Source: Sporosarcina ureae DSM 2281 (GTDB lineage: Bacteria > Bacillota > Bacilli > Bacillales_A > Planococcaceae). From it: a stretch of 64,000 nt of DNA. The stretch is taken from contig NZ_AUDQ01000005.1 in the NCBI RefSeq assembly GCF_000425545.1, positions 62,001-126,000 on the forward strand, read 5' to 3'. The notes beneath the pieces were generated by a model. It was not told the DNA's origin. It worked only from the letters and a program-made list of their open reading frames with translations, and did not search any database. The position numbers and the translations under genes were made by a program. Positions 10,259-50,935 of this stretch are shown piece after piece (the first letter of the stretch is position 1; the number at the start of each line of letters is the position of its first letter).

Positions 10259-10590
10259 GAGCGGTTGGCTGCTGGCTTTGAGCGGATAGCCGAAGACTAT
10301 GAGCGCTCGGATGCTGGTGTTGAGCGGATAGCTTCAAAGTATGAGCGGGTGTACGCTCGTATAGAGCGGATAGCCGGGATAATTGAGCGGATGACGGTCG
10401 CAATAGAGCGGATAGCAAAGTATGAGCGGTTTGCGGGCAGGATAGAGCGGGTAGCGTTGATGTATGAGCGGAATAGGCTCATGATAGAGCGGATAGCCGC
10501 TAACTATGAGCGCTCGGACACTCGCTTTGAGCGAATAGCCGTCGCAATAGAGCACTTAACGACAAAGTATGAGCGCCACAACTAGATTCC
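10259..10590 (+). repeat. GAGCG array 1: 16 units at 21-bp pitch
   Basis: GAGCG cores begin at 10259, 10280, 10301, 10322, 10343, 10364, 10385, 10406, 10424, 10445, 10466, 10487, 10508, 10529, 10550 and 10571: fourteen intervals of 21 bp and one of 18. Each core is preceded by TAT, TTT, GTT, ATT or ATA and followed by a different ~13-bp spacer; frequent continuations are GAGCGGATAGC and the palindrome GAGCGCTC. The unit at 10550 is degenerate (GAGCAC). A plus-strand frame stays open and would give heptads (YERxxxx), but other arrays of the family are interrupted by stops, so this is read as non-coding. It lies between convergent pbpG-like and ywhD genes. Confidence 0.9.
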
Positions 10591-10606
10591 ACCCCTCAAA
10601 CCCCAA

Positions 10607-10652
10607 TAAAAAAGCCTCGTTCTCCGTATCCGCGGAGAGCGAGGCTTTTTTG
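10607..10652. terminator. Bidirectional rho-independent terminator
   Basis: AAAAAAGCCTCG and CGAGGCTTTTTT flank a continued stem (TCTCCG/CGGAGA), giving an A-tract, a long hairpin and a T-tract usable from both strands, between pbpG-like and ywhD. The remaining 220 bases up to ywhD show no gene. Confidence 0.88.
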
Positions 10653-10871
10653 ACCGTTATGCAGGGATCGAATGAATCCGCACTGCTTGGGTTTGTGGTT
10701 TCATCAAACGACTGTCTACATAGCGGGTGTCCTAGATTACAGCGCAAAGCTGTATATTTAGTTTACTTCCTTTGTTGCAGACATTCAACCTCAAAGAGTA
10801 CGTTATGCAAATTGTCACATTTTTGACGTATTTGACGAGAATTGTACTTTTCAATTATGCCGTGTGACGTC

Positions 10872-11390
10872 TTACTCTGTGCGCAAACCTTCGTGTAATT
10901 CAGGTGTACTACGTTCCCAAAGCTCTGCGTTATGCGACTTTAGAAAGTCTTTTAGAATTTTCTTTGAACGATCGTCCATATCGTCTACAATAATTTGACG
11001 TTTCATTGATTTGTCCATGCGGTTGACGTGGTCTGCGAGCAACTTATAGCCTCGCCTCTTTTCGCGATTGACGACCATTTCACACGCTGTGATTCCTGCA
11101 TAATATGGACCTTCCTCACGATAATCAATTGTCACCCAAACGAGCCAGTATGGTTTACCGCCTTCAGAATCTTTGCGGTCCGTGGTGAATTTGATTCCTC
11201 GTTCTGTATCACTACGGGCATGCATAGCACCCATTTCCACTTGTGCTGTACCCGCTTCTACATCGATGATCACAGGCGAAATGTTTTCGAGCGACAACGA
11301 ACCTATGCCAAACCCTTTATGTCCATCTGTGGGATCATTTTTAATTATCGTAAAGCCTAACTTTGGTTTTGAATTTTGCTCACTTGCCAT
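10872..11390 (-). CDS. ywhD: YwhD family protein
   Basis: A 172-residue soluble protein of the YwhD family, found in Bacillales and of unknown function. The N-terminal FTIIKNDPTDGHKGFGIG and ENISPVIIDVEAGTA segments are strongly characteristic. The charged C-terminal half (VNREKRRGYKLLADHVNRMD) is probably helical. It is divergent from the tautomerase gene ywhB; B. subtilis also has ywhB and ywhD close together. No catalytic residues can be named. Confidence 0.9.
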   Translation of the reverse strand: MASEQNSKPKLGFTIIKNDPTDGHKGFGIGSLSLENISPVIIDVEAGTAQVEMGAMHARSDTERGIKFTTDRKDSEGGKPYWLVWVTIDYREEGPYYAGITACEMVVNREKRRGYKLLADHVNRMDKSMKRQIIVDDMDDRSKKILKDFLKSHNAELWERSTPELHEGLRTE

Positions 11391-11457
11391 GTAAATCGCC
11401 CTCCGTCTCTGTTATTATATGTACTATACCTGAATTTTCTGCTAAGGAGGAAATAAA

Positions 11458-11643
11458 ATGCCATACGTCACAGTAAAAATGCTTGAAGGCCGCACTGACG
11501 ACCAAAAACGTGCACTCTGTGAAAAAGTTACGCAAGCCGTTGTGGAAACGACTGGTGCTACTACTGATAGCGTAACAGTTTTCATTGAAGAAATGCCAAA
11601 AAACCATCTTTTTAAAGAAGGTAAACTGATGAGTGATCAGTAA
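11458..11643 (+). CDS. ywhB: 4-oxalocrotonate tautomerase family protein (YwhB-like)
   Basis: A 61-residue tautomerase. After removal of Met the N-terminal Pro (MPYVTVKMLEGRT) is the catalytic base of the 4-OT family, and the C-terminal FIEEMPKNHLFKEGKLMSDQ matches the active-site loop with family-typical spacing. These tiny subunits assemble as hexamers; the physiological substrate of the Bacillus protein is unknown. The start follows TAAGGAGGAA at good spacing, and a bidirectional terminator follows. Confidence 0.92.
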   Translation: MPYVTVKMLEGRTDDQKRALCEKVTQAVVETTGATTDSVTVFIEEMPKNHLFKEGKLMSDQ

Positions 11644-11650
11644 AATTGGC

Positions 11651-11680
11651 AAAAGGATTCTCATCGCGAGAATCCTTTTT
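11651..11680. terminator. Bidirectional terminator between ywhB and ywgA
   Basis: AAAAGGATTCTC, a short ATC loop region and GCGAGAATCCTTTTT form a perfect ~10-bp stem with A- and T-tracts on the two sides, separating convergent ywhB and ywgA. Confidence 0.87.
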
Positions 11681-11691
11681 ACTTAATTCAT

Positions 11692-12207
11692 TCAGCTGAC
11701 TGAACTCACTTGCATCTCTTCGATGAAGGCAAATGCTTGATCCATTTCTTGATCAGTAAAGTTCAGTTTGTTTTTTACGATACGTACTTTAGCAATTTGA
11801 TCCTCTTTATCGAGCTGATCGAAAAATAACAATGTGGAGACCAATTCCAAAAAACGTGACGACTTCTCATTCAATCGCTCGATACATTTGGGTAACTGTT
11901 CTTTCGGCGCTTCTGCTGTCGCAAGGAATTTCGACCCTTCATCCGTCACTTGGTAGCAATATTGTTTATATGAACCCTTGTCCTCAAAACGTTCAGCCAA
12001 AAAGCCCATTTCACATAACTCTTCTACTCGCAATGTCAGTTCTTCCGAATAAGGACCATACATATGGAGCTCGTATTTCTCTGCAAACGGGAAATTCATT
12101 TTCTTTAATATATAAACCATTTTCTGCATTTTCTTACGGCCATTCACTTCATTTGCCAACGATATAAACTGAACGATTTTTGCATGCTCTTGCAGCAAGT
12201 CCCGCAA
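11692..12207 (-). CDS. ywgA: YwgA family protein
   Basis: A 171-residue protein of the YwgA family. The N-terminal QEHAKIVQFISLANEVNGRK-MQKMVYIL block and the YGPYSEELTLRVEELCEMGF stretch resemble the winged-helix-like Panacea/YwgA group, but its function is not established. It starts 8 bp after the stop of the HD-domain gene on the same strand, so the two form an operon, as ywfO and ywgA do in B. subtilis. Some YwgA-like proteins are compared with antitoxin-type proteins; nothing local supports that here. Confidence 0.85.
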   Translation of the reverse strand: MRDLLQEHAKIVQFISLANEVNGRKKMQKMVYILKKMNFPFAEKYELHMYGPYSEELTLRVEELCEMGFLAERFEDKGSYKQYCYQVTDEGSKFLATAEAPKEQLPKCIERLNEKSSRFLELVSTLLFFDQLDKEDQIAKVRIVKNKLNFTDQEMDQAFAFIEEMQVSSVS

Positions 12208-12215
12208 CCCCTCTC

Positions 12216-13505
12216 TTAGCCTCTTAACAACTCCAAAATCTTCTTATGCAACGGGTTTCCATCTATCAACAAATCTTCTGGATAATAAATTTTATGGTCT
12301 GTTCTGCGTTTTCCTGATATCGCTTCGACCACATCGGACATCCGCGACAGTTCACGCAAATCGCCATTTTCTAGTTGTAAATAAATCGGCACGCGCTCAT
12401 TCTCTTCACCTGGACGATAAAAGTCGTAAGGTAAGTCTGATGAAGAATCCGTCACTAAATAATACTCAGGATCGAGCCCTGCTTCTTTAAACAATGTGAT
12501 AAGTTCACCGAATTTCATGTACTGCACTGCAGGATCGAACTCGGCATATTGAAATAGCCGTCTGTTCACGAAGCGATCGCATAAATCCGCTAAAATTGTA
12601 TCATTTTCTTCCATCCACAGCTGGAAATACGTCAATAACACGCCCTCGTCAAGAGCTATGTACTCTTTCAATTTGAACTCTTGTGCGAAAAAAGAAACGA
12701 AATGCAGCGGTTCTTGCTTAAACGCATATCCAGTTTCGAATAAATGTTTCGCTCTGTGTAAAATTTTGATCAAAATCACTTCTGCACTTCGCGATACAGG
12801 GTGGAAATATACTTGCCAGTACATTTGATAACGGCTCATGATATAGTCTTCCACCGCATGCATGCCGCTGTGCTTGATGACGACTTGTTCTTCAGTCGGA
12901 CGCATCACACGCAAAATCCGTTCCATGTCGAAGTGGCCATAGGAAACGCCTGTGTAATACGCATCGCGCTGAAGATAATCCATACGGTCCGCGTCGATTT
13001 GACTGGAAATCAAACTGACGACTAGTTTGTCCGGATACGTCTTATCTATGACATCCGCCACTTTTTGAGGGAAATCTGGCGACACACGATGCAACACTTC
13101 ATGGACTTCTGTCTGTTCCAATAAAATTTGCTGGGTGAATTGTTCGTGATCCAGATTGAATACTTTTTCAAATGCGTGGGAAAACGGACCATGTCCTAGA
13201 TCATGCAATAGTGCTGCACAAAGGGCGACAAGTCGCTGTTCTTCGTCCCATTCTTCACGCCCACTGAAGCCGTCGTCTAGAATTCGTCTGACGATTTCAT
13301 AGACACCGAGCGAGTGCTGGAAGCGGCTGTGTTCTGCGCCGTGGAACACGAGATAGGTAGTGCCAAGCTGGCGAATCCTGCGCAGGCGCTGGAATTCGCG
13401 GGTGTTGACCAGATCCCAAATTACGCGGTCTCGGACATGTATGTAGCGGTGCACGGGGTCTTTAAACACTTTTTCTTCGGGCAGTTTTTCGTTTTGGTAC
13501 GCCAT
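12216..13505 (-). CDS. ywfO: HD-domain phosphohydrolase YwfO
   Basis: A 429-residue HD-superfamily hydrolase. The metal site is seen in H-E-H residues of FHGAEHSRFQHSLGVYE, the HD pair in AALLHDLGHGPFSHAFE and a later Asp in QIDADRMDYLQRDAYYTG. Relatives of YwfO act on nucleoside triphosphates or dNTPs, but the exact substrate here is unknown. The C-terminal part (after about 300) is the family-specific extension. It is divergent from rsfA, with a 635-bp gap that holds GAGCG array 2 and a palindromic-element copy. Confidence 0.9.
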   Translation of the reverse strand: MAYQNEKLPEEKVFKDPVHRYIHVRDRVIWDLVNTREFQRLRRIRQLGTTYLVFHGAEHSRFQHSLGVYEIVRRILDDGFSGREEWDEEQRLVALCAALLHDLGHGPFSHAFEKVFNLDHEQFTQQILLEQTEVHEVLHRVSPDFPQKVADVIDKTYPDKLVVSLISSQIDADRMDYLQRDAYYTGVSYGHFDMERILRVMRPTEEQVVIKHSGMHAVEDYIMSRYQMYWQVYFHPVSRSAEVILIKILHRAKHLFETGYAFKQEPLHFVSFFAQEFKLKEYIALDEGVLLTYFQLWMEENDTILADLCDRFVNRRLFQYAEFDPAVQYMKFGELITLFKEAGLDPEYYLVTDSSSDLPYDFYRPGEENERVPIYLQLENGDLRELSRMSDVVEAISGKRRTDHKIYYPEDLLIDGNPLHKKILELLRG

Positions 13506-13652
13506 GTCGTCACCTCATCCTTCATTCGTTCTAGTATAACAAAAAACGACGGATCGTGACATAGTACTCTATGACGGATTTTAAACAGTAAATAGTAAAA
13601 CGTGTTTTTAGTGAAGAAGGAATTAGTAATTACATGTAGATTCAGCTTATAT

Positions 13653-13802
13653 GAGCGGTTGCCGACTTAGTATGAGCGCTTGTCGCTGATGATAGAGCGG
13701 TTAGACTTGAGTTATGAGCGTTTAATCAGTTTAATGAGCGGCTATGCAGCAAGTATGAGCGCTTGAACAGATTGTTGAGCGTTTGCGACAGTTCAATGCG
13801 CA
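13653..13802 (+). repeat. GAGCG array 2: 7 clear units
   Basis: Cores begin at 13653, 13674, 13695, 13716, 13736, 13757 and 13777, so spacings are 21, 21, 21, 20, 21 and 20; a degenerate TGCGC follows near 13797. Flanks before the cores are TAT, ATA, AAT and GTT as in array 1. This is the only array between divergently transcribed genes (ywfO and rsfA). Reading frames are not maintained because of the 20-bp steps. Confidence 0.85.
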
Positions 13803-13830
13803 ACAAGAAGTATTACCCACTTGCAATGCA

Positions 13831-13957
13831 GGGATTGGAGCGAGAGCAGTAGCGAAGGAGGGCTTTTGCGAGCATAAGCGAAGCGTTGGAAGCGCATCTT
13901 TGTACTAGGAGAGCCGACTCCGGGAGGACACCGCGTCCCCTCCAAAACACCAATTCC
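13831..13957. repeat. Palindromic intergenic element copy carrying the ~70-bp core
   Basis: The element opens with GGGATTGGAGC and closes with CCAATTCCC as an imperfect terminal inverted repeat. Bases 13839-13908 are a copy of a ~70-bp segment (GAGCGAGAGCAG...CTTTGTACTAG) also found at 18092-18162 and, inverted, at 30505-30575. The remaining sequence to the rsfA start (13958-14141) has no recognisable gene. Confidence 0.65.
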
Positions 13958-14141
13958 CACCCCAACAGCCCGTCAGCCTATTCCCGAACACCCTACCAAC
14001 TACCATATTCAACTCCTACTCACCCAAAAAGCCCGCCCGCTTTATTACCATCTTGATAGAATTTTGTGACTCTCTGAATAAAAGACTCATTTCGTGGTCA
14101 TAATGGCAGTAGAAAGAGAGTACAAGACAGGAGGCATGGAG

Positions 14142-14780
14142 ATGGTGAAAGTTAGACAAGACGCATGGTTAGAACAGGACGATGAATTATTGGCAGAGAC
14201 GGTGCTACGACATGTAAGAGAAGGAAGTACACAACTAGGTGCATTTGAGGAAGTAGGCGACGCTCTGAACCGAACTGCAGCAGCTTGTGGGTTCAGATGG
14301 AATGCAGTCGTGCGAAGAGACTACGAGAGTGAACTCTCCGAAGCGAAGAAAGAGAGAAAGCAAACGTTACGTGTGCTAGGTACAGATTTTAAAAGACGTA
14401 ACCAGCAAATGTACAACTCCGAGACAGGCGCAGATGGCCAGGAGAAAATACAGGTTCCATTATCCGCCCTATCGCTCGACACCGTCATTGCATATTTAAT
14501 TCGCATGCATCATAACGGGGGTGCCGATACGGATGCTCTTCGATGGAGACAGACGGCAAAAACAGCGACGGAACAAATGAAATCGCTGGAATCGCAAATA
14601 GAAGATCTGAAAAAAGAGAACAGAACATTGAAAGACGATTATGAGCAATTCGTCCAAATCATGAATCGTGCACGCCGATTAATCGCTTTGAATGAAGAAA
14701 GCGAGCACATAGCACCGTTGTTCAAAATGGAGCCTAATGGAAATCTAGTCTCATCAAAAGAGCCGCCAATCAATAACTGA
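14142..14780 (+). CDS. rsfA: RsfA-type prespore transcription regulator
   Basis: A 212-residue regulator of the RsfA/PrsfA family, which tunes sigma-F-dependent genes in the forespore. The N-terminal Myb/SANT-like helix-turn-helix reads VRQDAWLEQDDELLAETVLR with GTQLGAFEEVG-type and ACGFRWNAVVRRDY segments; a coiled coil (TATEQMKSLESQIEDLKKEN) follows near 155-185. The ATG at 14142 sits 9 nt after GGAGG, whereas an upstream in-frame GTG has no site. Position next to ywfO and lipL matches B. subtilis ywfN (rsfA). Confidence 0.88.
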   Translation: MVKVRQDAWLEQDDELLAETVLRHVREGSTQLGAFEEVGDALNRTAAACGFRWNAVVRRDYESELSEAKKERKQTLRVLGTDFKRRNQQMYNSETGADGQEKIQVPLSALSLDTVIAYLIRMHHNGGADTDALRWRQTAKTATEQMKSLESQIEDLKKENRTLKDDYEQFVQIMNRARRLIALNEESEHIAPLFKMEPNGNLVSSKEPPINN

Positions 14781-14797
14781 TTGGCAGCTTTTTTTCG
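14760..14797. terminator. Terminator overlapping the end of rsfA
   Basis: GCCGCCAATC, short loop, GATTGGCAGC followed by seven T residues; the stem includes the last codons of rsfA and lies 3 bp from the convergent lipL stop codon. Confidence 0.8.
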
Positions 14798-14799
14798 TT

Positions 14800-15636
14800 C
14801 TATGACAGCATCTTTTGATTGCGTTCAAAGACGCGTTTCAAATAAAATCCGTATAATTCCATTTCCTCGTCTGTTAAACCACCGTGTCGCACATCTTCTG
14901 TCAACGAGCGCAATAATACTTGCAGACGAATAACGACTTCATTGACCGTCAAATGCGTATCGAGAATTTCCGATAACGACGCCATCGTATCCGGCTTGAT
15001 CACAGGATAGCTGAATTTTGTCGGCTGTCGTTGTAAGCCCTTCTCATAGACTTCACGAATGATCTCCGCTCGTTCAGATCCACTGCCTTCAATGCATAAA
15101 TACACTTGTACAGCGATTCCTTGGCGCAGACGCCGCTGGGAGATCCCTGCGAATTTCTTACCATCAACACTTAAATCATACGATCCAGGACAATAAGATC
15201 CGACAATTTCATAGGCTTCTATCCGTTCGCCAAGTTCAGGAAATAGTAGCTGAACTAGTGATAGCATCGCTTCATAGCCTACCGGAATATCAATCGAAGA
15301 CTTTTGTTCGGAAAAGATTAAGGAAATATTTAATACCCCTTCATCTAGAACGACTGCCAGACCGCCCGAGTTGCGAACGATTGACTGATAGCCGTGCTGC
15401 TCGATCCCTTCCATCGCTTGTTGAATAAAAGGCATGCGATGATCTTGAATACCTAACACGATCGTCTTGTCATGTACCCATGTTCTGACTACAGGTACGC
15501 TTTGTTGCTGTCCAACTAATTGGCATAACGTATCATCCATAGCGAATGATTCGAGTGCAGAACGATTGCGTGCTGAAATCGATTCGTCAATGAAACGCCA
15601 AGCTGGTTGATTCAATAATTGTTTATCTTGTGACAT
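14800..15636 (-). CDS. lipL: Octanoyl-[GcvH]:protein N-octanoyltransferase LipL
   Basis: A 278-residue member of the BPL/LplA/LipB fold. It keeps the R-(N/S)-SGGLAVVLDEGVLNIS block and SYCPGSYDLSVDGKKFAGIS with a cysteine suitable as the acyl-thioester nucleophile, which marks LipL rather than an ATP-dependent lipoate ligase. LipL moves octanoyl groups from GcvH to E2 subunits during lipoate assembly. It follows pta on the same strand by about 66 bp; the ywfL(lipL)-pta neighbourhood is conserved with B. subtilis. Confidence 0.88.
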   Translation of the reverse strand: MSQDKQLLNQPAWRFIDESISARNRSALESFAMDDTLCQLVGQQQSVPVVRTWVHDKTIVLGIQDHRMPFIQQAMEGIEQHGYQSIVRNSGGLAVVLDEGVLNISLIFSEQKSSIDIPVGYEAMLSLVQLLFPELGERIEAYEIVGSYCPGSYDLSVDGKKFAGISQRRLRQGIAVQVYLCIEGSGSERAEIIREVYEKGLQRQPTKFSYPVIKPDTMASLSEILDTHLTVNEVVIRLQVLLRSLTEDVRHGGLTDEEMELYGFYLKRVFERNQKMLS

Positions 15637-15702
15637 GTCTAGCTCTCCTATGGTGGTTGATCTGGATTTTATGTAGACGGTTCACAAACTTCGAACCTGT
15701 GA

Positions 15703-16674
15703 TTATAGGCTCTGAGCTGCTGTGATGATAGATAGCTTGTACACGTCTTCTGCAGAACAACCGCGTGACAAGTCGTTGACAGGACCATTCAGGCCTTGAA
15801 GAATGGGACCGATCGCTTCATAGCCGCCAAGACGTTCAGTCAATTTGTAGCCAATGTTTCCTGCATCGAGTGTCGGGAAAATAAAGACGTTTGCATCGCC
15901 TTTGATGACAGATTCCGGAGCTTTTTTCGCTGCTACACTTGGTACATATGCTGCGTCAAATTGGAATTCTCCATCAATCAATAGCTCAGGCGCCAATTCT
16001 TTTGCAATTCTAGCCGCCTCCACCACTTTTTCCGTCTCTTCAGTCACAGCAGAACCTTTAGTGGAGAATGAAAGCATCGCAACGCGCGGATCAATTCCGA
16101 ATGCTTTTGCAGTTTTTGTACTTTCCACAGCGATTTCAGCCAACTCTTTAGCCGAAGGATTCACAGTAATAGCACAGTCTGCAAAAATCAGACGCTCATC
16201 TTCTTTCATCATAATGAAAGCTCCGCTTGTTTTTGAAATGCCAGGCTTTGTCTTGATGATCTGCAATGCCGGACGAACTGTATCTGCCGTCGAATGTGCA
16301 GCTCCACTCACTAAACCATCTACACGTCCTGTATAGATTAGCATAGTTCCGAAATAGTTTACATCTTTCAATTGCTCGCGCGCTTGCTCAATTGTAGCTT
16401 TTCCTGCACGACGTTCAACGAATTTTTCCGCCAGTTCTTCAAAATAGGAAGCGTTTGCAGGATCGATTAACTTAATTTCAGAAATATCGAAACCACCATC
16501 TTTCGCTGCTTTATTTACCGCTTCTTCATTCCCTAATAAAACCGGTGTAATAATCCCCTCTTGTTGAAGATGCACAGCTGCTTCTAGTATTCTCACGTCT
16601 TCCCCTTCAGGTAATACGATCGATTTTCCTTTACCTTCCAACGTTTTACGAATTCCTTTAAAAAGATCTGCCAT
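15703..16674 (-). CDS. pta: Phosphate acetyltransferase
   Basis: A 323-residue short-form phosphotransacetylase converting acetyl-CoA and phosphate to acetyl phosphate and CoA. Family blocks seen are SIVLPEGEDVRILEAA, DGLVSGAAHSTADTVRPALQ, RVAMLSFSTKGSA and the C-terminal GGYEAIGPILQGLNGPVNDLSRG. Length is normal for the Firmicute enzyme, without the N-terminal regulatory domain of enteric Pta. The start has an AAAGGGTGGG site. The gene is divergent from hemQ. Confidence 0.97.
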   Translation of the reverse strand: MADLFKGIRKTLEGKGKSIVLPEGEDVRILEAAVHLQQEGIITPVLLGNEEAVNKAAKDGGFDISEIKLIDPANASYFEELAEKFVERRAGKATIEQAREQLKDVNYFGTMLIYTGRVDGLVSGAAHSTADTVRPALQIIKTKPGISKTSGAFIMMKEDERLIFADCAITVNPSAKELAEIAVESTKTAKAFGIDPRVAMLSFSTKGSAVTEETEKVVEAARIAKELAPELLIDGEFQFDAAYVPSVAAKKAPESVIKGDANVFIFPTLDAGNIGYKLTERLGGYEAIGPILQGLNGPVNDLSRGCSAEDVYKLSIITAAQSL

Positions 16675-16888
16675 ATGTCATTCCCACCCTTTGTTATATT
16701 TTCCTATTCATCATACCTGAAAAGCTTAATTATTACACTAGGAACTCTGAAATATTCTGATAACTGTCACCTAGCTATTCATTTTTACACTACGTGTCGT
16801 GGATCTTACCTTATTCCTTAACGAGTAAAGGCCGTTATGATACACTTGAAATAGAAAGTACTTTGATTTAAAAGGAGACTGAATTCAA

Positions 16889-17638: not shown

Positions 17639-17650
17639 TACGTAAGACTG

Positions 17651-18831: not shown

Positions 18832-18832
18832 G

Positions 18833-19250: not shown

Positions 19251-19349
19251 GATTATTCCTTCTTTCTAACAAATCTTGTATATCCTGTTTCCAGTCTACC
19301 ATATTAAAACACGTAGATATGACAGGTGTTTGAACGGTTTGTGGCGCTA

Positions 19350-19613
19350 TCAGAAATCAAACAGCGACTCTCCGTTGGCATCCGCTTCCTGCAATGGTTG
19401 CTCGTTAAGCGACGTAATCGGCGTCGCCTGTACAGAACTCATTTGCATAGCTTGAGGCATGGATGGCACAGATGGCCTTTCATCACTGAGCATCACATTA
19501 CATAACGCTCGCACAGCATAGATGGCTTCTCTTTGTGCCGCTTCATTCTGTGTTTGTTTCGCCAAGCGTACTTGTTGCTCAATTTCTCCAAGCAATTGTG
19601 TAGCTGTAATCAT
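19350..19613 (-). CDS. ywdI: YwdI family protein
   Basis: An 87-residue protein resembling YwdI. The N-terminal helix MITATQLLGEIEQQVRLAK and YAVRALCNVMLSDE are family-like, while the C-terminal third is low complexity (Met/Pro/Gln-rich). The ATG at 19611-19613 follows AAGGGGATG and overlaps the stop of the upstream cysteine-rich gene by 4 bp (ATGA). Function is unknown. Confidence 0.75.
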   Translation of the reverse strand: MITATQLLGEIEQQVRLAKQTQNEAAQREAIYAVRALCNVMLSDERPSVPSMPQAMQMSSVQATPITSLNEQPLQEADANGESLFDF

Positions 19614-32760: not shown

Positions 32761-34143
32761 ATGACTTCATTACCATCATTGGACCAATATTTCACAAACA
32801 ACCGTGACCGCCACTTGGAAGAGTTAACGAACTTCCTGGCAATTCCAAGCATCAGCGCACTTTCCGAACATCAACCGGATATGCAAAAAGCAGCGGAATG
32901 GTTGTCGAATGAATTCGAAAATATCGGCTTGGAAAACGTGTCGATTGAAAAAACGGCTGGACAATCCGTTGTCTATGCAGACTGGTTGCATGCCGAAGGT
33001 CAGCCAACCATCCTGATCTATGGCCACTACGATGTGCAACCTGTTGACCCGCTTCACTTATGGGAAACACCTCCATTTGAAGCAACAATACGTGATAATA
33101 AATTATATGCACGCGGAGCAAGCGATGATAAAGGGCAAGTGTTTATGCACAGTAAAGCAATCGAGGCGCTAATGAATGTTGAAGGCAAACTTCCTGTAAA
33201 CGTCAAGCTCATTATTGAAGGGGAAGAGGAAATTGGTAGCCCGAGCCTTGAGGAATATATCCAAAATAATCAAGACAAACTAGCGGCAGACTTCATCGTT
33301 ATTTCTGATACAGGCATGTACGGACCAGGACAGCCCGCCATTTGCTACGGACTGCGCGGATTAGCCGGCGTACAAATCGACGTGAAAGGCCCTAAAGGTG
33401 ACTTGCATTCCGGACTATACGGTGGCGGTGTTCAAAACCCGATCCACGCACTCGTCGAAATTCTAGCTTCATTCCGTGATGCCGAAGGAACTATTGCAAT
33501 CGACGGATTCTATGATCAAGTTCGCGACCTAACTGAAGAAGAGCGTGCAGGATGGGCAGCTCTCGACTTCGATAAGGAAGCAGTGAAAAAAGAAGTCGGG
33601 GTTAAAGAACTGACCGGTGAACCAGGCTACACGTACACGGAACGCACATGGGCACGTCCTACACTCGAGATCAACGGCGTATTCGGAGGATTTTCAGGAG
33701 AAGGCATCAAAACCGTCCTCCCTTCCGAAGCAGGAGCGAAAATCACTTGTCGACTAGTCCCCGATCAAGAACCGGATGAAATCGTAGAAAAGCTACGCGC
33801 GCACATTGCGAAACACGAACCCGTCGGCTGTGAAGTAACAGTAACTGAATTTGATAAAGGGAAACCTTACCTAACGCCATACGACCACGAAGTGATTCAA
33901 GCGGCAGGCAGAGCGTATGAGCAAGTATATGGCGTACCTACCGTTTACACACGGGGTGGCGGCTCCATACCAATCGTTGCAGCATTTGATGAAATCCTTA
34001 ACATCCCAGTCGTCTTAATGGGCTTCGGACTGGATACGGAAAACTTCCACGCGCCGAATGAACACTTCCACTTGGAGAATTTCGATAAAGGACTGCGTGT
34101 CATCAGCAGTTATTATGGAGAGATTGAAAAGCTTGGATTGTGA
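32761..34143 (+). CDS. M20 family dipeptidase
   Basis: A 460-residue M20 metallopeptidase. Zinc ligands and catalytic residues are visible: YGHYDVQP (His89, Asp91), ARGASDDKG (bridging Asp near 122) and IEGEEEIGS (general-base Glu near 156); the dimerisation domain follows GLRGLAGVQIDVKGP, and the last His is in APNEHFHLENFDKG. This subgroup hydrolyses dipeptides or acylated amino acids in the cytoplasm; the exact substrate is unknown. The start follows AGAGGG, and the stop abuts GAGCG array 3. Confidence 0.9.
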   Translation: MTSLPSLDQYFTNNRDRHLEELTNFLAIPSISALSEHQPDMQKAAEWLSNEFENIGLENVSIEKTAGQSVVYADWLHAEGQPTILIYGHYDVQPVDPLHLWETPPFEATIRDNKLYARGASDDKGQVFMHSKAIEALMNVEGKLPVNVKLIIEGEEEIGSPSLEEYIQNNQDKLAADFIVISDTGMYGPGQPAICYGLRGLAGVQIDVKGPKGDLHSGLYGGGVQNPIHALVEILASFRDAEGTIAIDGFYDQVRDLTEEERAGWAALDFDKEAVKKEVGVKELTGEPGYTYTERTWARPTLEINGVFGGFSGEGIKTVLPSEAGAKITCRLVPDQEPDEIVEKLRAHIAKHEPVGCEVTVTEFDKGKPYLTPYDHEVIQAAGRAYEQVYGVPTVYTRGGGSIPIVAAFDEILNIPVVLMGFGLDTENFHAPNEHFHLENFDKGLRVISSYYGEIEKLGL

Positions 34144-34149: not shown

Positions 34150-34412
34150 GAGCGGTTGTGTGTGGTGATAGAGCGCTTGCCCGGTTGCATTGAGCGGGTG
34201 CGGTGCTGGATAGAGCGCTCGCGGGAGTGCATTGAGCGCTTAAGCTGCTGGATAGAGCGCTCGCTGGGTTACATTGAGCGCTTACGTTGCTAGATAGAGC
34301 GCTCGCTGGGTTGCATTGAGCGCTTACGCTGCTGAATAGAGCGCTCGTGGGGTTGCATTGAGCGCTTGCGTTAGCCGGATAGAGCGCCCACAAGAAACCA
34401 TGAGCACTTCTC
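34150..34412 (+). repeat. GAGCG array 3: 13 units with 42-bp superstructure
   Basis: Cores begin at 34150, 34171, 34192, 34213, 34234, 34255, 34276, 34297, 34318, 34339, 34360, 34382 and 34402: ten steps of 21 bp, then 22 and 20. After the first unit the preceding triplets alternate strictly ATA / ATT, and spacers alternate between GAGCGCTCGC-type and GAGCGCTTAC-type, giving a 42-bp higher-order repeat. The plus frame is broken by TAG within the array. It lies between convergent dipeptidase and nitroreductase genes. Confidence 0.9.
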
Positions 34413-44012: not shown

Positions 44013-44094
44013 ATTCATGTTGTATTTATTCAATTTCTTAGACAAAGAAGTAATTAAGGTTTCTAACTCCACTCTCCAACATTAGAAAACGTCA

Positions 44095-45942
44095 TTAGTC
44101 AATCGTAAGTGGAAGGCTTCGATCAACGGCTTCCACTTTCTCTTCATTATTCAGCATCCCATAAAACACGCCTTTGCGTTTCAGCAGTTCATCGTGGCTG
44201 CCGGATTCGAGTAGCTCGCCATCTGCCAGTACGAAGATTTTGTCTGCTTGTCTAATCGTGTTCAAACGGTGGGCGATGACGAAGCTTGTTCGTCCTTCCA
44301 TGAGACGCTCTAACGCTTCTTGAATCGCGAGCTCTGTCACTGTATCAATGCTGCTCGTCGCTTCGTCGAGTAACAGCAAGGTCGGATCCGCCACGAGTGC
44401 TCGCGCGATAGATAACAGTTGTTTTTGTCCTTGTGATATCTCTTCGCCACCTGCCGTCAGCACCGTGTCATAGCCAGACGATAGTTTGCAGATGAAGCTG
44501 TGGGCGTTGGCTTTTTTTGCAGCTTCTTCCACTTCTTCGTCCGTTGCGTCGAGTCTGCCGTAGCGAATGTTTTCGCGAACTGTCGCCTCGAACAAGAACG
44601 GATCTTGCAAGACGAAGGCCATTTGGCTACGTACGGTATGGCGTGGCAGTTCGTCGATTGCGATGCCGTCGAGCAGAATTTGGCCGCTGTCTACTTCATA
44701 AAAGCGTGACAGCAGTTGCATGATCGTCGTCTTCCCTGCTCCTGTTGCACCAACAAAGGCTGCGGTTTCACCTGATTGAACATGGAAGCTAAGGTTCTTA
44801 ATAATCGCTTCCTCTTCATAACCAAACGTCACATCGCGGAACTCGACATCGCCATGTAATGTTTCGATTTGCTTCGTTGCTTCGTCTTTTTCCACCGGCT
44901 CGTCCATAATGGCAAACACTCGCTCCGCTCCTGCAATGGCGGAGAGGACGGTATTAAATTGATTGGCCAAATCGTTCAGCGGTCGCGTGAATTGCCGTGC
45001 GTACTCACTGAAGATGACAATCGTTCCGACTGTTACGCCACCATATCCTGTCACCGCCAGCAGTCCGCCAACCCCCGCAACTATCGCGAACGACATATTA
45101 TTAAGTGTGTTCATGACTTTTGGAATGAAGCCTGAATATGTCTGCGCCCAAAAACCCGCTGTACGAAGGCGTTCGCTTTTTTGCGCGAACTCTTCCATGA
45201 CATTCTGTTCCTGTGAGAACGCTTTGACGACACGTTGACCAGAAATCGTTTCTTCAATCATCCCATTTAATTCACCGATTGCGCGCTGTTGCTCTTTAAA
45301 TAATATACCCGTGCGACGAGTAATCCAGCGCATGGCAATGAACATTAAAGGTACGATAATCATAGTCAGCAACGTCAATAACGGACTGAGATACAGCATA
45401 ATTGATACCGTACCGACCAGTGTCAGTACACTTGAAAACACTTGGATCAACGAAGAATTCAGCGTCTGGCTAACATTCTCGATATCGTTCGTCACGCGGC
45501 TCATCAATTCACCGTGCTGCCGCTTATCAAAGAATCGGATGGGCAGCTTCTGTAGATGGCCAAATAATTGCGTGCGCAGACGATAAACTGTTTGCTGTGC
45601 AATTCCGACCATCCAGTAGTTTTGGAAATAAGTAGACAATGAGAAGCCTGCATACACGAGCAGTAATAAGCCAATCTGCATACTGAGCCCGTCCACTTTT
45701 TTCGGAATGATGAAATCGTCGATAATCTTTCCAATCATCAATGGGCCAATTAGCGCTAGGGCTGAACTGATTAATACGAGAGTCATGACTGCGATTAGTA
45801 AACTTCGTTGTTGATCGATCAAACGCCAAATGCGTGCAAGTACGGATTTCCAGTCGCCCGCTTTCTGAACTTTTTTACGCTGAACTTTTGATAAATCCTC
45901 TTTCCGAATAATAGGTTCATAGCCGAAAGGTTTTCGCATCAT
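44095..45942 (-). CDS. Heterodimeric ABC exporter, subunit B (YfiC/BmrD-like)
   Basis: A 615-residue half-transporter: six-helix ABC membrane domain (about 45-335), then an NBD with Walker A GATGAGKTT, an altered signature ISQGQKQLLSIARAL (canonical LSGGQ) and an intact Walker B LLLLDEATSSID with the catalytic Glu. The N-terminus has a cytoplasmic extension (about 1-40). The altered signature pairs with the altered Walker B of the partner, giving one degenerate and one active ATP site. It overlaps the partner gene by 4 bp. Likely drug or lipid export. Confidence 0.88.
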   Translation of the reverse strand: MMRKPFGYEPIIRKEDLSKVQRKKVQKAGDWKSVLARIWRLIDQQRSLLIAVMTLVLISSALALIGPLMIGKIIDDFIIPKKVDGLSMQIGLLLLVYAGFSLSTYFQNYWMVGIAQQTVYRLRTQLFGHLQKLPIRFFDKRQHGELMSRVTNDIENVSQTLNSSLIQVFSSVLTLVGTVSIMLYLSPLLTLLTMIIVPLMFIAMRWITRRTGILFKEQQRAIGELNGMIEETISGQRVVKAFSQEQNVMEEFAQKSERLRTAGFWAQTYSGFIPKVMNTLNNMSFAIVAGVGGLLAVTGYGGVTVGTIVIFSEYARQFTRPLNDLANQFNTVLSAIAGAERVFAIMDEPVEKDEATKQIETLHGDVEFRDVTFGYEEEAIIKNLSFHVQSGETAAFVGATGAGKTTIMQLLSRFYEVDSGQILLDGIAIDELPRHTVRSQMAFVLQDPFLFEATVRENIRYGRLDATDEEVEEAAKKANAHSFICKLSSGYDTVLTAGGEEISQGQKQLLSIARALVADPTLLLLDEATSSIDTVTELAIQEALERLMEGRTSFVIAHRLNTIRQADKIFVLADGELLESGSHDELLKRKGVFYGMLNNEEKVEAVDRSLPLTID

Positions 45943-47657
45943 GCCACTCCCCCATTCTGTTGCGATTTTGCAATTTCCCGATAGAAGGCAGACGTTTGAA
46001 GTAACTCTTCATGCGTGCCATAGCCCACAATCTCACCATCTGATAATAATAAAATCGCATCAGCAATTTGAGCGGTTTGGATTTTTTGCGTGACAATCAG
46101 CATCGTCGTATCTTCTTCCTGCAATGCGTCCCATAATGACGATTCGGTTTTGACGTCGAGTGCACTCGTGCTATCATCCAAAATCAGTAAGGAGGGCTTA
46201 CGAATCAATGCGCGAGCAATAGACAAGCGCTGTTTTTGACCGCCAGATAAATTCACGCCGCGCTGCCCGACACGTGTTTCATAGCCATCTGTAAAGTTCA
46301 TGACAGACGAATGTATTTGTGCTTTTTTACCGGCCTCTTCGATTTCATTCGCAGTGGCGTCCGGTTTACCCCATGACAGATTATCGGTGATCGTACCTGT
46401 AAAGAGCATTGATTGCTGCGGCACATAACCGATCAAGTTTCGTAATGTGTTAAGCGGCCAGTCGGCTATGTTTTTGCCATCGATCCACACAGTACCTTCC
46501 GTCGCCGTGAACATGCGCGGGAGTAGTTGAAGCATCGTAGATTTACCGGAACCGGTAGCCCCCATAATGACAAGCTTCTCACCCGCTGGAATTTCAAACG
46601 ACACGTCTCTAAGCACATCTTCAGTCGTTCCTGGATAACGGAATGAGACGTGCTCAAAACGAACTGAAACAGCACCTTGTTGGCAATTGTCGGCTATCTC
46701 TAGCTTTTCGAGATCACCATCGGCAACTAGCAGTTCTTCCATCCGATCGGAAGACGCTTTTGCGCGCGAGAAAATGACGATCAAAAAGGAGAACATTGAA
46801 AAAGCGCTTGTCATTCTCATCGTGTAGTTGACGACTGCTACGACGTCTCCGACAGGCATATTGGAGTTGCGCACTTCGTCTGCACCGAACCAAAGCACCG
46901 CCATAAAGCTGACGTTCATGATAAACAGTAACACGGGTAAAATTAGTTCCATTAAACGCATCGCATGGACACTGTCTTTTTTCAGTGCACTTGCCGCTTT
47001 GGAAAAACGGTTCGTTTCAAAAACACCTCGTAAATAGGCTTTAATGAGACGAACCGCTTGTAAATTTTCTTGTACGAGTTGATTGACACCGTCCAAACGG
47101 CGTTGAACTTGCCCGAATAAACGTACACCTTTGCGCGCCATGACGACGAGGAATACAGCTAGGAACGGTGAACCAATTAGTAAGAATACTGCGAGTTTCG
47201 GACTGACGACGAATGCCATAATCAGACTGCCGAGTGCCATTAACGGTGCGCGGGCCATAATTCGTAACCCCATGAAGAGCGCGGTTTGGGCAAGCGTCAC
47301 ATCACTTGTCAAACGTGTAATGAGACTAGATGTCGGAAAGCGCAAAAATGCCGCTAGCGAAAACGTCTGGACGCGCCGAAACAAAGCTTGTCTGAGATCA
47401 TAGCCGAAACTTTGCGCGGCATGTGCAGCGAAATAGGAATTGACGACGCCCGTAAAGAGCGCTATAAAGGCGAGTGCCATCATGACACTCCCCCAAATCA
47501 GAACGGTGTTCAAGTCTTCTTTCATAATTCCTTCATCTATAATTCTACCGATCAGCAATGGTTGAATTAATTCGACCGATAGTTCAAGTAACATGAGTAA
47601 AATGGCGATGAACATTGGCCATTTATAAGGTAGTGCATAGCGAAAAACCGTTTTCAT
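45939..47657 (-). CDS. Heterodimeric ABC exporter, subunit A (YfiB/BmrC-like)
   Basis: A 572-residue half-transporter. Six-helix membrane domain (about 1-310), then an NBD with Walker A GATGSGKST, canonical signature LSGGQKQRLSIARAL and Walker B SLLILDDSTSALD, where Asp replaces the catalytic Glu. This is the usual asymmetry of heterodimeric exporters. It is first in the two-gene operon; no attenuator or regulator gene is adjacent. Confidence 0.88.
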   Translation of the reverse strand: MKTVFRYALPYKWPMFIAILLMLLELSVELIQPLLIGRIIDEGIMKEDLNTVLIWGSVMMALAFIALFTGVVNSYFAAHAAQSFGYDLRQALFRRVQTFSLAAFLRFPTSSLITRLTSDVTLAQTALFMGLRIMARAPLMALGSLIMAFVVSPKLAVFLLIGSPFLAVFLVVMARKGVRLFGQVQRRLDGVNQLVQENLQAVRLIKAYLRGVFETNRFSKAASALKKDSVHAMRLMELILPVLLFIMNVSFMAVLWFGADEVRNSNMPVGDVVAVVNYTMRMTSAFSMFSFLIVIFSRAKASSDRMEELLVADGDLEKLEIADNCQQGAVSVRFEHVSFRYPGTTEDVLRDVSFEIPAGEKLVIMGATGSGKSTMLQLLPRMFTATEGTVWIDGKNIADWPLNTLRNLIGYVPQQSMLFTGTITDNLSWGKPDATANEIEEAGKKAQIHSSVMNFTDGYETRVGQRGVNLSGGQKQRLSIARALIRKPSLLILDDSTSALDVKTESSLWDALQEEDTTMLIVTQKIQTAQIADAILLLSDGEIVGYGTHEELLQTSAFYREIAKSQQNGGVA

Positions 47658-47729
47658 CTAATTCACCCTTTACTTGCTGTCTTTCCTTTCATTATGTCAT
47701 ATAGGAATACAGTGTGTACAGGCGAAAAG

Positions 47730-48677
47730 CTATACCTCGCTATGGTCATACTCTTGAATAGGATCTGGGAACGGAGCGCTTTTCTTCTTGCGATTACCGC
47801 CTATGGATAACCAGACAACCCCCACTAGCATGATGGCCGCGCCGGTTAGTTGCCAGACACCCATTGCCTGACCTAGCCAGAATACGGAGATTATCATCGC
47901 TGTAAGCGGTTCGAAGCTGGAAAGCACGCTCGTTTCAACAGGTGAAATATAGTTCATACTTTGCAGGAACATGATGAATGCGAGTGTTCCCATAATGATG
48001 ACGAGTAACAACATACCCATCGCTGGACCGTCAAGCAAAGCACCAAGATTCATGAAGAACATCGGCAAGTTGATGATGAATAAAGTCATACCACCAATGA
48101 ACATTCCCCAGCCAACGACGAGTAATACACCCCACTCCGCCATAAGAACTACGGGATATAGTGTGTAGAAAGTGAAGGCAAATCCCACAATTATCCCCCA
48201 CACAATTGCGGTCGTATCTAATGAAATGCTCGAGAACGAACCATTTGTCAAGAGCAAGATCAAGCCGAATAACGCAATGACCATACCGATTACTTGGCTG
48301 CCTGGCGGGAAGGATTTCTGAAATATGGAAAGCAGAATGATGATGTAGACCGGTGCAACGAACTGGAATAATGTTGCGACTACTGCGTCACTATGTGCGA
48401 TGGTTTGAACGAATCCAAACTGTACACCGAGCATTCCGATCACGCCGAACATCACCATTTTGCGCAACCACAACTTTTGCCTCATAGGACGACCGACCTG
48501 TATGCCTTTTGCTTTCAATAATAATAGCAACACGCCACCCGCGATCGACAAACGTAGGATTAACATCATCGAAACGGACATTTCACTATGGTTCAAAATC
48601 CACTCCATCATAGGCCCCGTAGCGCCCCATAACATCGAACCTATAATAATCATGATAATTCCTTTTAATCGCAACAT
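47730..48677 (-). CDS. EamA/DMT family transporter
   Basis: A 315-residue protein with ten predicted transmembrane helices in two EamA repeats (GSMLWGATGPMMEWIL near 12; SALVWGIIVG-like second repeat near 155, then YISPVETSVLSSFEPLTAMI near 250). Likely exports a metabolite or drug; substrate unknown. Short basic C-terminal tail. Confidence 0.88.
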   Translation of the reverse strand: MLRLKGIIMIIIGSMLWGATGPMMEWILNHSEMSVSMMLILRLSIAGGVLLLLLKAKGIQVGRPMRQKLWLRKMVMFGVIGMLGVQFGFVQTIAHSDAVVATLFQFVAPVYIIILLSIFQKSFPPGSQVIGMVIALFGLILLLTNGSFSSISLDTTAIVWGIIVGFAFTFYTLYPVVLMAEWGVLLVVGWGMFIGGMTLFIINLPMFFMNLGALLDGPAMGMLLLVIIMGTLAFIMFLQSMNYISPVETSVLSSFEPLTAMIISVFWLGQAMGVWQLTGAAIMLVGVVWLSIGGNRKKKSAPFPDPIQEYDHSEV

Positions 48678-48743
48678 GATCTGTCACCCCTAACTAATTT
48701 CTTGTCTTTTTAGTCATATAGTATAAAATTCACACATGAGTCA

Positions 48744-48771
48744 TGGACAACACTGAAACTTCATTTATAAT
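48744..48771 (+). promoter_or_regulatory. Sigma-A type promoter of the EAL-domain gene
   Basis: TGGACA (48744-48749) and TATAAT (48766-48771) with a 16-bp spacer, about 34 bp upstream of the start codon. Confidence 0.6.
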
Positions 48772-48804
48772 AGTTATATAGTAGAATTGGAGAGGAGTAC
48801 CTTT

Positions 48805-50457
48805 ATGCACACAATTCCGTTACCAGAGACAAGCAGATATCAGGCACTAGTCGATAGTCTAAGTAAATACCAATTAGTTACACATACGGATGGCGATGGT
48901 CTAATCACCTATGCTAATCAAAACTACCTAACCGTCAGTGGTTGGACTCCTAAGCGCATTTTAGGAAAATCTTTCTGGCAAATGTTTTCGGATCAACCTG
49001 AAAGCCAGGAAATAGCGAACTCCATTTGGGATTGTTTGCTGTCAGGGAAAACATGGGCGGGTAAAATAGAAAAAATGTCTCGCAAAGGTGAATCATTCTA
49101 TGTGAATACACTCGCTGTCCCTACCCTCTCCGACTTCGGAGAACTGCAATCCGTATTTTTCTTGGAGCTAGATATTACGGAAGATGTTCGTTTGCAGAAA
49201 CGCTTAGGAGACATTGCATTCATTGATGTAGAAACAGGACTCATGAGCCGCCACAAGCTAGAACAAGTGGTGAACGAATACATCGCAAATGCTAACCATT
49301 TTTCATTTGTCTATTTGACGATCGATCATTACTTCACTATGAAAGAGCTGCAATCCCAAGAAACTGAGACGCAGCTGATTCAAGAATTCACCAATCGATT
49401 AAAACGTTATTTCCAAGATAATCCGATTGCACGTATCGATACGAATAGCTTTGTTGTGCTGACAGCTTTCGGTGATTGGTATATTCAAGGATTCTATGAT
49501 TTCTTAAAGCAACAGCCAATCTACCTCAGCCACAATGCGCAAACACTTTCGATCAGTGGCGGGATTGTACGTTTCCCTGAAGACCAGAAAACATACACGC
49601 AACTATACAAAGTTGCGATGACTGCCGCAGATGATGTCATTAGTCAAGGTGGTGGACGGATTGCTTCACTGTCTGCTGAGTCCCATAAAATTCTGAACCG
49701 CCGTTTGGAAATTGACCGCAAGATGCTGACAGCACTAGATCGCAATTCATTGCATGTAGCGTATCAACCGCAATATGATGTGGCTAGCGAGAAAATCACA
49801 TGCTATGAAGCGCTCGTTCGTTGGGAGGATGAAGATCTTGGCGTCATCAGTCCCGACGAATTGATTCCGATTGCAGAAGAAAACGGTTTGATTGAAGAAG
49901 TCGGTGCATATGTGGCAGAAGAAGCGATGACGTTCGTAACGAAATGGCATCGCGCCGGGAATGATATGAGTATTTCCATCAACTCTTCTATTCGTGAATC
50001 TTTGAATCCACAATGGAAAGACCGATTAATCTCCATCTTAAATGAAACAGGTTGCCCCGCAAATAAAGTGCATCTTGAGTTTACGGAGAAATTTGCGCTT
50101 AAAGCGGAAGAAGAACAATCCGTGCTGGCACAAATGTCCGAACTACAAAACCTCGGTTTACAGTTCACTCTCGATGATTTCGGTTCAGGATATGCATCGT
50201 TGCGTTACTTGCAGCATTTGCCGATCTCCAGCGTCAAGATTGACCGCGTCTTTATCGATGCGTTATTGAGCAATCCGAAGACGCAGAAATTGATCGAAGG
50301 ACTGATCCAACTTTCCAAGAAGATCAACTTATACACGATCGCAGAAGGCGTTAGCAATGAACAGCAATTTGAATTGCTGAAAGAGATGGGCATCGATGCT
50401 ATGCAAGGTCATTTCATCGGAATGCCAATGCCGGGTGAGCAAATCGAAATTAAATAA
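48805..50457 (+). CDS. PAS-GGDEF(degenerate)-EAL cyclic-di-GMP phosphodiesterase
   Basis: A 550-residue cytoplasmic protein. A PAS domain (about 10-130: GLITYANQNYLTVSGWTPKR), then a GGDEF-like domain (about 135-290) in which the signature is replaced by IDTNSFVVL, so no cyclase activity is expected. The EAL domain (about 300-545) keeps EALVRW, SINSS, HLEFTE, LDDFGSGYASL, VKIDR and AEGV, the residues needed for metal binding and hydrolysis of c-di-GMP. The ATG at 48805 follows GGAGAGGAG. No transmembrane helix; the PAS domain probably senses a cytoplasmic signal. Confidence 0.92.
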   Translation: MHTIPLPETSRYQALVDSLSKYQLVTHTDGDGLITYANQNYLTVSGWTPKRILGKSFWQMFSDQPESQEIANSIWDCLLSGKTWAGKIEKMSRKGESFYVNTLAVPTLSDFGELQSVFFLELDITEDVRLQKRLGDIAFIDVETGLMSRHKLEQVVNEYIANANHFSFVYLTIDHYFTMKELQSQETETQLIQEFTNRLKRYFQDNPIARIDTNSFVVLTAFGDWYIQGFYDFLKQQPIYLSHNAQTLSISGGIVRFPEDQKTYTQLYKVAMTAADDVISQGGGRIASLSAESHKILNRRLEIDRKMLTALDRNSLHVAYQPQYDVASEKITCYEALVRWEDEDLGVISPDELIPIAEENGLIEEVGAYVAEEAMTFVTKWHRAGNDMSISINSSIRESLNPQWKDRLISILNETGCPANKVHLEFTEKFALKAEEEQSVLAQMSELQNLGLQFTLDDFGSGYASLRYLQHLPISSVKIDRVFIDALLSNPKTQKLIEGLIQLSKKINLYTIAEGVSNEQQFELLKEMGIDAMQGHFIGMPMPGEQIEIK

Positions 50458-50476
50458 AGTATCGCTATCAAATTAG

Positions 50477-50514
50477 ATGGAGCTCCTTTCATAAAGAAAG
50501 GGCTCCATTTTTGT
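50477..50514 (+). terminator. Terminator of the EAL-domain gene
   Basis: ATGGAGCTCCTTTC, ATAAA, GAAAGGGCTCCAT and a T-run. Confidence 0.87.
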
Positions 50515-50616
50515 CTATCTTGTTCAGTTGTGGTAAGTCTTAGTGCGTTTGATTACAGCTTACTGTACGGGAGGTGAAAAGACAACCTTTTTTGGTTGGG
50601 TTGTGGGGGTGTGATT

Positions 50617-50935
50617 GAGCGGATGGCGGTTGCGATTGAGCGGTTGGCCGGGTGGATTGAGCGGATTGCAGGTGCGATTGAGCGATTGGCCGGGTGAATT
50701 GAGCGGATCGCAGGTGCGATTGAGCGATTGGCTGGCTTCATTGAGCGGATAACGGGTCCGATTGAGCGCTTGGCTGGCTTCATTGAGCGGATTGCGGGTT
50801 CGATTGAGCGCTTGGCTGGCTTCATTGAGCGGATTGCGGGTCCGATTGAGCGCTTGACTAGCTTCATTGAGCGGATCGCCACCGCCATAGAGCGCTCGAC
50901 AATATAAATGAGCGCCCACCAATACTAGTGAGCGC
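50617..50935 (+). repeat. GAGCG array 4: 16 units at 21-bp pitch
   Basis: Cores begin at 50617, 50638, 50659, 50680, 50701, 50722, 50743, 50764, 50785, 50806, 50827, 50848, 50869, 50890, 50910 and 50930: thirteen steps of 21 bp, then two of 20. Almost all are preceded by ATT. Spacers repeat in pairs (GAGCGGATTGCGGGT / GAGCGCTTGGCTGGCTTC), a 42-bp superstructure. The plus frame is stopped by TGA within the array. It lies between convergent EAL-domain and beta-propeller genes. Confidence 0.92.

Follow-up and report, generated by a model that had tools for sequence, protein, structure and literature searches.

The best described pointers on bacterial chromosomes are KOPS in Escherichia coli and SRS in Bacillus subtilis, which serve the translocases FtsK and SpoIIIE; they are octamers with a leading-strand bias that read from origin to terminus (PMC2680272). 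Ter sites, bound by Tus or RTP, cluster near the terminus; RTP is confined to a subgroup of the Bacillales (PMC7174701). The Streptomyces promoter regulator BldC binds cooperatively and directionally, head to tail, to variable numbers of direct repeats of the type AATTXXXX(C) (PMC5859096). RemA of Bacillus forms an oligomer on repetitive AT-rich DNA upstream of promoters, with 7-bp footprints at 3-bp intervals (PMC8481266), and REP/BIME elements are palindromes of 20-40 bp with GTAG or CGTC tags (PMC3733652). Here, we analyzed a stretch of 64,000 nucleotides from Sporosarcina ureae DSM 2281 (contig NZ_AUDQ01000005.1, positions 62,001 to 126,000 of the forward strand; in the following, the window), which harbors four intergenic arrays of the core GAGCG at a pitch of 21 bp. 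Judged from sequence comparison, these arrays look like an undescribed kind of direction-marking DNA-binding platform.

The initial annotation had placed four arrays in the window, all reading GAGCG on the plus strand. An exact census found all of them in place and on that strand, with 15, 7, 12, and 16 exact GAGCG (50 in total). The core is GAGCG throughout this work, in-phase GAGCA is counted where stated, and genes were called by a simple open reading frame (ORF) rule. The earlier counts of 16, 7, 13, and 16 were reproduced by adding one in-phase GAGCA in A1 and one in A3. Array A1 (10259..10575, plus strand; 15 GAGCG and one GAGCA at 10550) lies in a convergent intergenic region, between the stop codon of a transglycosylase/transpeptidase gene and a terminator-like hairpin. 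A2 (13653..13781, plus) has 7 GAGCG with gaps of 21, 21, 21, 20, 21, and 20 bp in a divergent intergenic region. A3 (34150..34406, plus; 12 GAGCG and one GAGCA at 34402) is again convergent and extends from the stop of an M20 peptidase gene to a terminator-like hairpin, and A4 (50617..50934, plus; 16 GAGCG) is situated between a convergent pair, an EAL/GGDEF gene on the plus strand and a beta-propeller gene on the minus strand. The intergenic location holds for all four alike. When the two GAGCA were included, 41 of the 48 intervals within arrays measured 21 bp; the others were five of 20 bp, one of 18, and one of 22. The strict pitch claimed before was therefore confirmed, while its exact count (40 of 48) had to be corrected.

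In the window, 39 same-strand GAGCG pairs were separated by 21 bp. In 200 sequences from a first-order Markov model, the mean was 0.045 such pairs and the highest value 2. Of all combinations of a 5-mer with a distance of 8-89, GAGCG with 21 bp ranked first. Chance phasing, an objection that the initial annotation had raised against itself, was rejected by this comparison since the spacing was far above chance. The whole genome (G000; 3.32 Mb in 35 contigs; other G-labels denote comparison genomes) gave 368 four-core matches, 245 forward and 123 reverse, and none for the reversed control pattern GCGAG.

The anatomy of the unit was determined from 84 arrays in the fetched stretches of eight Sporosarcina genomes. 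Orthologous sites are included, so these arrays are non-independent, and some stretches were fetched because they bear arrays, so array densities are not genome averages. The arrays had a median of 17 cores (range 5 to 69) and contained 1032 distinct units, each consisting of WWWGAGCGSWTR and roughly nine variable bases after it. The lead-in had been given as (T/A)AT or ATA. In the 1032 units it was WWW, with C or G in 65 of them at position -2, in 9 at -1, and in 4 at 0. The bases 3' of the core showed an S-W-T-R preference. Gaps of 21 bp were found 1243 times, gaps of 20, 18, and 22 bp 63, 17, and 5 times, respectively, and 70 double gaps of 42 bp were present. Where a middle core was lost, GAGCA stood in its place in 34 of 67 cases. 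The array caller demands at least three gaps of 20-22 bp, and the unselected evidence for the pitch consists of the Markov comparison and of a blind scan, described below, that presupposes neither a core nor a period. The spacers of Sporosarcina are slightly G-rich on the core strand, whereas those of two genomes of another genus, G074 (L324-L326) and G076 (L310-L323), are pyrimidine-rich and G-poor (0% and 14% G).

Between adjacent units (1028 pairs), the mismatch was 1.9% in the core and 60.9% outside the core, in agreement with the earlier statement that the arrays are unlike ordinary minisatellites. A plain minisatellite or variable number tandem repeat was rejected, as neighbors differ by 61% outside the core. 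For units 42 bp apart (756 pairs), the mismatch was 1.1% at the five core positions and 31.7% at the other 16; this comparison was scored only where a further core lay in register, so the tested unit was not selected for its core. A fifth site, A5 (60900..61262, approximate bounds), has no array in G000 but six or seven GAGCG in G018, G245, and G023, and five of these units could be compared one to one in the three genomes. Mismatches amounted to 2/75 in the core, 55/237 in the spacers, and 81/480 in the left flank, and the difference between core and spacer was significant (Fisher p ~1e-5; genome pairs not independent). These alignments indicate a strong constraint on the core and none such on the spacers.

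The arrays were also conserved as sites. At A1, an array was present in G018, G245, G224, G023, G001, and G226, at A3 in the first five of these, and at A4 in the first four. Every fetched relative that covers one of these three sites thus had an array there, with 6 to 38 cores, the sole exception being G217 at A1. The spacers at orthologous sites were mostly unrelated between genomes, and copy number also turned over. At A2, only G000 had an array among eight genomes compared. Absence from close relatives, which the initial annotation had listed as a refuting outcome, was not what we found: many relatives carry arrays, though not all. G000 has an inverted repeat at A5 (arms 61048-61068 and 61154-61174) in place of the array, and G018, G245, G001, and G023 have inverted-repeat-like sequence, read by eye, where G000 has A2; arrays and inverted repeats may thus be interchangeable at certain sites. 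The arrays of G018 at 1.35, 1.97, 1.995, and 2.08 Mb have spacer sequence in common, as if converted between loci.

The orientation of the arrays was strongly linked to replication. We located dnaA in the genomes used and defined the arm as half a genome from dnaA. Of the 62 intergenic arrays whose arm is known, 59 had GAGCG reading 5' to 3' toward the origin; when two arrays inside ORFs of G217 were included, it was 59 of 64. The initial annotation had asked for strand to be mapped relative to the origin, and a clear bias was the outcome. The arrays pointed toward the origin when both neighboring genes were leading (11/12) or lagging (9/9), and also between convergent (28/29) and divergent genes (11/12), and co-directional arrays were in the same sense as their neighbors in 11 cases and antisense in 14. 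We concluded that array orientation follows replication, not transcription. The per-genome values are from hand-merged listings in which close neighbors were counted once. The lists for G018, G224, G226, and G076 combine base-restricted sub-sampling patterns with fetched stretches, and that of G076 covers all 53 reverse and 47 of 54 forward matches. In these listings, all arrays of G224 (21/21) and G226 (7/7) pointed toward the origin, and the same was true for G076 of a second genus (14/14). With core GCGAGTAT, G074 of that second genus had 7 of 8 arrays in this orientation. Orientation flipped at the origin in G018, G224, and G076, and at the opposite side in G076 only. GC skew in the window is negative on the plus strand, which by proxy places its four arrays in the lagging sense, and the orthologous region of G018, which lies reversed on the right arm, agrees with this placement. 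Outside arrays, GAGCG was biased oppositely (785 leading versus 518 lagging occurrences in 967 kb), and composition skew was therefore ruled out as the cause of the polarity.

With regard to gene context, gaps of 50 bp or more were considered. Arrays occupied 27 of 98 convergent and 11 of 109 divergent gaps, and 11 of 233 leading and 9 of 85 lagging co-directional gaps. The convergent value compared to all co-directional gaps (20/318) shows a preference for convergent intergenic regions in the stretches examined. About 40 array sites were listed in G018, and the nearest arrays lay 15 kb from dnaA in G018 and G224. The arrays in L232 (G018) and in L253 and L254 (G224) follow about 3.5 kb beyond a 16S motif and are probably located just after an rRNA operon.

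We found GAGCG arrays in 85 of 261 genomes, representing 11 of 19 genera. All genomes of this order-wide search were from the window's own family, and the result is silent on other families. Among genomes of other families in the class, 0 of 16 matched. A draw from the phylum, with only two genomes from the window's family, gave matches in 4 of 398 genomes, namely G000 and three that resembled coding or short-period repeats; the reversed control hit 2 genomes. In a scan of a genome collection, the matches listed (80 of at least 120 stretches) included Oceanobacillus, Ornithinibacillus, Virgibacillus, Fictibacillus, and Bacillus, and the units in these five genera also had the 21-bp pitch. Most of the listed matches fall outside Bacillota and are presumed to be coding repeats. 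The reversed control hit 27 of the 261 family genomes, and in G073, G074, and G097 these hits were arrays with the core CGCGAGTATT. The blind scan accepted any 5-mer with a period of 12 to 40 or 45 and at least five copies in register; it covered 20-60 kb for most comparison genomes, and rows with N-runs were set aside. Period 21, together with its double, 42, emerged almost alone. Other cores at 21 bp were GCGAAACGACTAAAG and AAAACGTTTCC in G003, GGTTGGACACTTTCG in G002, GTGCAAGCAAA in G013, GCGCCCGTAAA and TATCACCGCTT in G217, CGAGTT-type units in G020, and CCGCGAGTATT in G073. Several of these stretches contain an open frame and may be coding. Departures from the period came from G002, which had a single array at 20 bp, and from G020, which had two runs (30 and 45).

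We give an even chance to the reading that the arrays are head-to-tail sites of a sequence-specific protein binding double-stranded DNA, set at two-turn spacing and forming a polar complex aligned with replication. Each core, as a site of about 11 bp (WWWGAGCGSWTR), would be bound by one such postulated protein. The pitch of two helical turns would place neighboring protomers on one face of the DNA, where contacts and cooperative binding would be possible, and the head-to-tail repetition of an asymmetric site would give the complex a direction. With this direction aligned with replication on both arms, forks, or motors traveling with or against the fork, would mostly meet the complex from the same side. 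Rather than in gene regulation, the complex would most likely act as a polar road sign or as an anchor, used by a chromosome motor or by the fork, and such a sign or anchor could serve the fork, SMC, or a translocase. Other genera, and sometimes a single genome, use other cores at the same pitch, which suggests that the specificity of the protein changes while the geometry is kept. The initial annotation had already proposed a protein-binding scaffold. This part is supported by the strict core, the near-constant two-turn pitch, and the link to the replication strand, whereas the choice of a nucleoid, replication, or segregation factor as partner goes further than these observations.

Several observations weigh against the reading as protein sites with replication-aligned polarity. 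The DNA-binding protein remains postulated; none was found. After a step of 20 bp, the arrays do not return to the helical phase (63 gaps of 20 versus 5 of 22), so at most the spacing between neighbors matters, and a test of the unit for a bending signal at 10.5 bp did not reach significance (p 0.05 to 0.61). The 20-bp array of G002 has a constant pitch (core CTAATTGCAACTT, L277, ~19278-19400) and is the sole period-20 array of the blind scan. Polarity is incomplete: among the matches listed, 30 of 40 arrays pointed toward the origin in G018, 8 of 11 in G217, 16 of 19 in G245, and 5 of 8 in G077 of the second genus (length entered as about 4.7 Mb; terminus not mapped). The second core in G217 was non-polar (2/6 toward the origin), and 11 of 14 arrays of G000 agreed when local GC skew replaced the arm. 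At least one discordant array appears to be conserved between G018 and G245, judging by similar spacers and a similar dnaA offset in unaligned sequences. In G005, which belongs to the same genus, 280 kb were without an array of any core, as were the 60 kb of G015 and 40 kb of G019 examined, and the trait is thus dispensable.

The main rival, which we consider rather unlikely but by no means negligible, is mutational polarity. Arrays would expand where the stronger-folding strand is synthesized as the lagging strand and shrink in the opposite orientation, and the core would perhaps be kept by a non-polar binder. Triplet repeats are known to expand or shrink depending on orientation through folding of one strand. 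The GAGCG strand folded more stably in 81 of the 84 Sporosarcina arrays (DNA parameters, first 300 nt) and corresponds to the nascent lagging strand, as this model demands. However, the core strand was the more stable one in only 9 of 14 arrays of G076, despite a polarity of 14/14, and in 1 of 3 arrays of G074. Among the three discordant intergenic arrays, moreover, not all are short (6, 17, and 32 cores versus a median of 18 in concordant ones), and slippage alone leaves the conservation of only the core unexplained. A known polar system in new form, with translocase pointers like KOPS/SRS or a fork trap like Ter, appears improbable to us. The flips of orientation at the origin, and in G076 also on the opposite side, would fit such a system. 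Like KOPS/SRS, the arrays have a short asymmetric motif whose orientation tracks the replication arm (59/62 arrays; 30/40 in G018). KOPS/SRS are, however, described as octamers biased to the leading strand (PMC2680272), while the array core is in the lagging sense and forms long arrays; the arrays moreover are intergenic, keep a 21-bp pitch, have lineage-specific cores, and read GAGCG from terminus to origin. The complement CGCTC is on the leading strand, so the array form is no less important for this contrast than the strand. With Ter, which works by polar fork encounter, the arrays have in common asymmetric sites in one orientation per arm. Ter sites are described as clustered around the terminus (PMC7174701), in contrast to the roughly 40 sites listed in one genome here, the nearest of which is 15 kb away from dnaA.

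A selfish or mobile repeat that owes its spread to an enzyme with single-stranded DNA of the lagging strand as substrate, in the manner of REP/RAYT, would account for the lagging-strand polarity, for the convergent or downstream locations, and for the presence of A2 in one genome only. REP/BIME are likewise intergenic, occur in many copies downstream of or between convergent genes, and form lineage-specific families (PMC3733652). But neither a palindromic unit nor a constant end was seen, the unit logo being a non-palindromic direct repeat with a 5-bp core, and different loci mostly have only the core in common. The array at the A1 site persists in G226, where the neighboring gene is 76% identical, and neither A4 in plasmid sequences nor A3 in phage sequences found a match. 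Altogether, we consider this origin quite improbable. The initial annotation had also allowed for an RNA with repeated stems. A1 and A3 each follow a stop codon and precede a terminator-like hairpin, a position that would suit a transcribed RNA element or a device of the 3'-untranslated region. The sense of the arrays was not fixed to transcription, however: besides the co-directional arrays (11 same-sense, 14 antisense), the convergent ones matched the sense of the nearer gene in 22 cases and did not in 20. Rfam, at gathering scores, gave no match inside the four window arrays. An RNA element was rejected for these reasons, and its likelihood is very low. Coding of coiled-coil heptads (7 codons correspond to 21 bp), or relics of it, is hardly credible for the GAGCG arrays. 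One frame gives IERLAxx-like heptads, and 38 of 84 arrays keep at least one of six frames open, but stops were present in all six frames in 46 of 84 and in the GAG frame in 70 of 84, on which grounds this candidate was rejected. Gaps that shift the frame (20, 22, and 19 bp) outnumbered those of 18 bp by 69 to 17, and the ORF spanning A1 (P0001) is without Pfam match.

The spacing of the arrays is like that of iterons. Iterons of plasmids and origins are direct repeats about two helical turns apart that are bound by one protein, located near the rep gene, at one locus per replicon; the arrays differ by their dozens of chromosomal loci (40 sites listed in G018). The Chi sequence of B. subtilis is AGCGG, a constant sequence with leading-strand bias. 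A Chi of this type was rejected since the base after GAGCG is G in only 537 of 1032 units and array cores are in the lagging sense. CRISPR have, besides cas genes, a constant repeat of more than 20 bp and unrelated spacers. The constant part of the arrays is 5-12 bp and spacers are related at 42 bp; this comparison covered repeats and spacers. BldC provides an example of directional, head-to-tail assembly on direct repeats in variable number, although its repeat is shorter (PMC5859096). Its pitch is about 9 bp, in contrast to 21 bp in the arrays, which are replication-polar and mostly away from promoters. RemA resembles the arrays in that repetitive DNA is bound by an oligomer and differs in geometry, with its footprints of 7 bp and intervals of 3 bp (PMC8481266). 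KOPS/SRS, Ter, REP, and RemA all differ from the arrays in one or more of the defining features tested, and we therefore filed the arrays under none of them; they may still work like a polar pointer.

Searches of the open literature for such arrays and for comparable systems gave no description of them in titles or in the opening lines of abstracts. We tentatively offer a bolder version of the reading as head-to-tail protein sites, which we hold to be possible though not probable: the Bacillales would have an undescribed direction code, in which the polar filament of a fast-evolving protein on two-turn sites tells the replisome, SMC, or a translocase the direction of the origin, with the geometry kept and the word rewritten per lineage. 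Centromere repeats and PRDM9 sites are fast-evolving recognition systems to which this would be a bacterial parallel. If true, the arrays would represent a chromosomal element of a new class, with about 40 listed sites in one complete genome of a common bacterial family, replication-polar and phased, and with a word that changes by lineage at fixed spacing. They would provide a handle on the means, other than the known octamer pointers, by which arm direction is encoded in Gram-positive chromosomes, and on the joint turnover of a DNA-binding specificity and its many sites.

Further features were noted around the arrays. The gene left of A1 (8185..10239, plus) encodes a protein of 684 aa with transglycosylase and penicillin-binding transpeptidase domains (Pfam PF00912, PF00905). 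On the other side, the terminator-like hairpin with a T-run (10608..10651, plus; read by eye) carries one extra GAGCG in its stem (10637-10641), out of phase with A1. Downstream of A2, a gene at 14094-14780 encodes a Myb-like DNA-binding domain (PF13921) and may be a lead to a protein that binds the arrays. The M20 peptidase gene (Pfam PF01546) left of A3 extends over 32761..34143 (plus), and the beta-propeller gene (Pfam PF09826) right of A4 over 50943..53081 (minus). Upstream of A4, positions 50545-50596 (GCGTTTGATTACAGCTTACTGTACGG...) are intergenic yet very similar in G000, G018, G245, G224, and G023, and this stretch is a possible small RNA or regulatory site. In Virgibacillus oceani (L087, 96-971), several long and repetitive ORFs that overlap one another run through the array on both strands; if annotated, they are likely to be spurious proteins. 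More generally, part of the spurious, repetitive "hypothetical proteins" of such genomes may stem from arrays. A cobalamin riboswitch (RF00174) is present on the minus strand of the window at 5649-5775.

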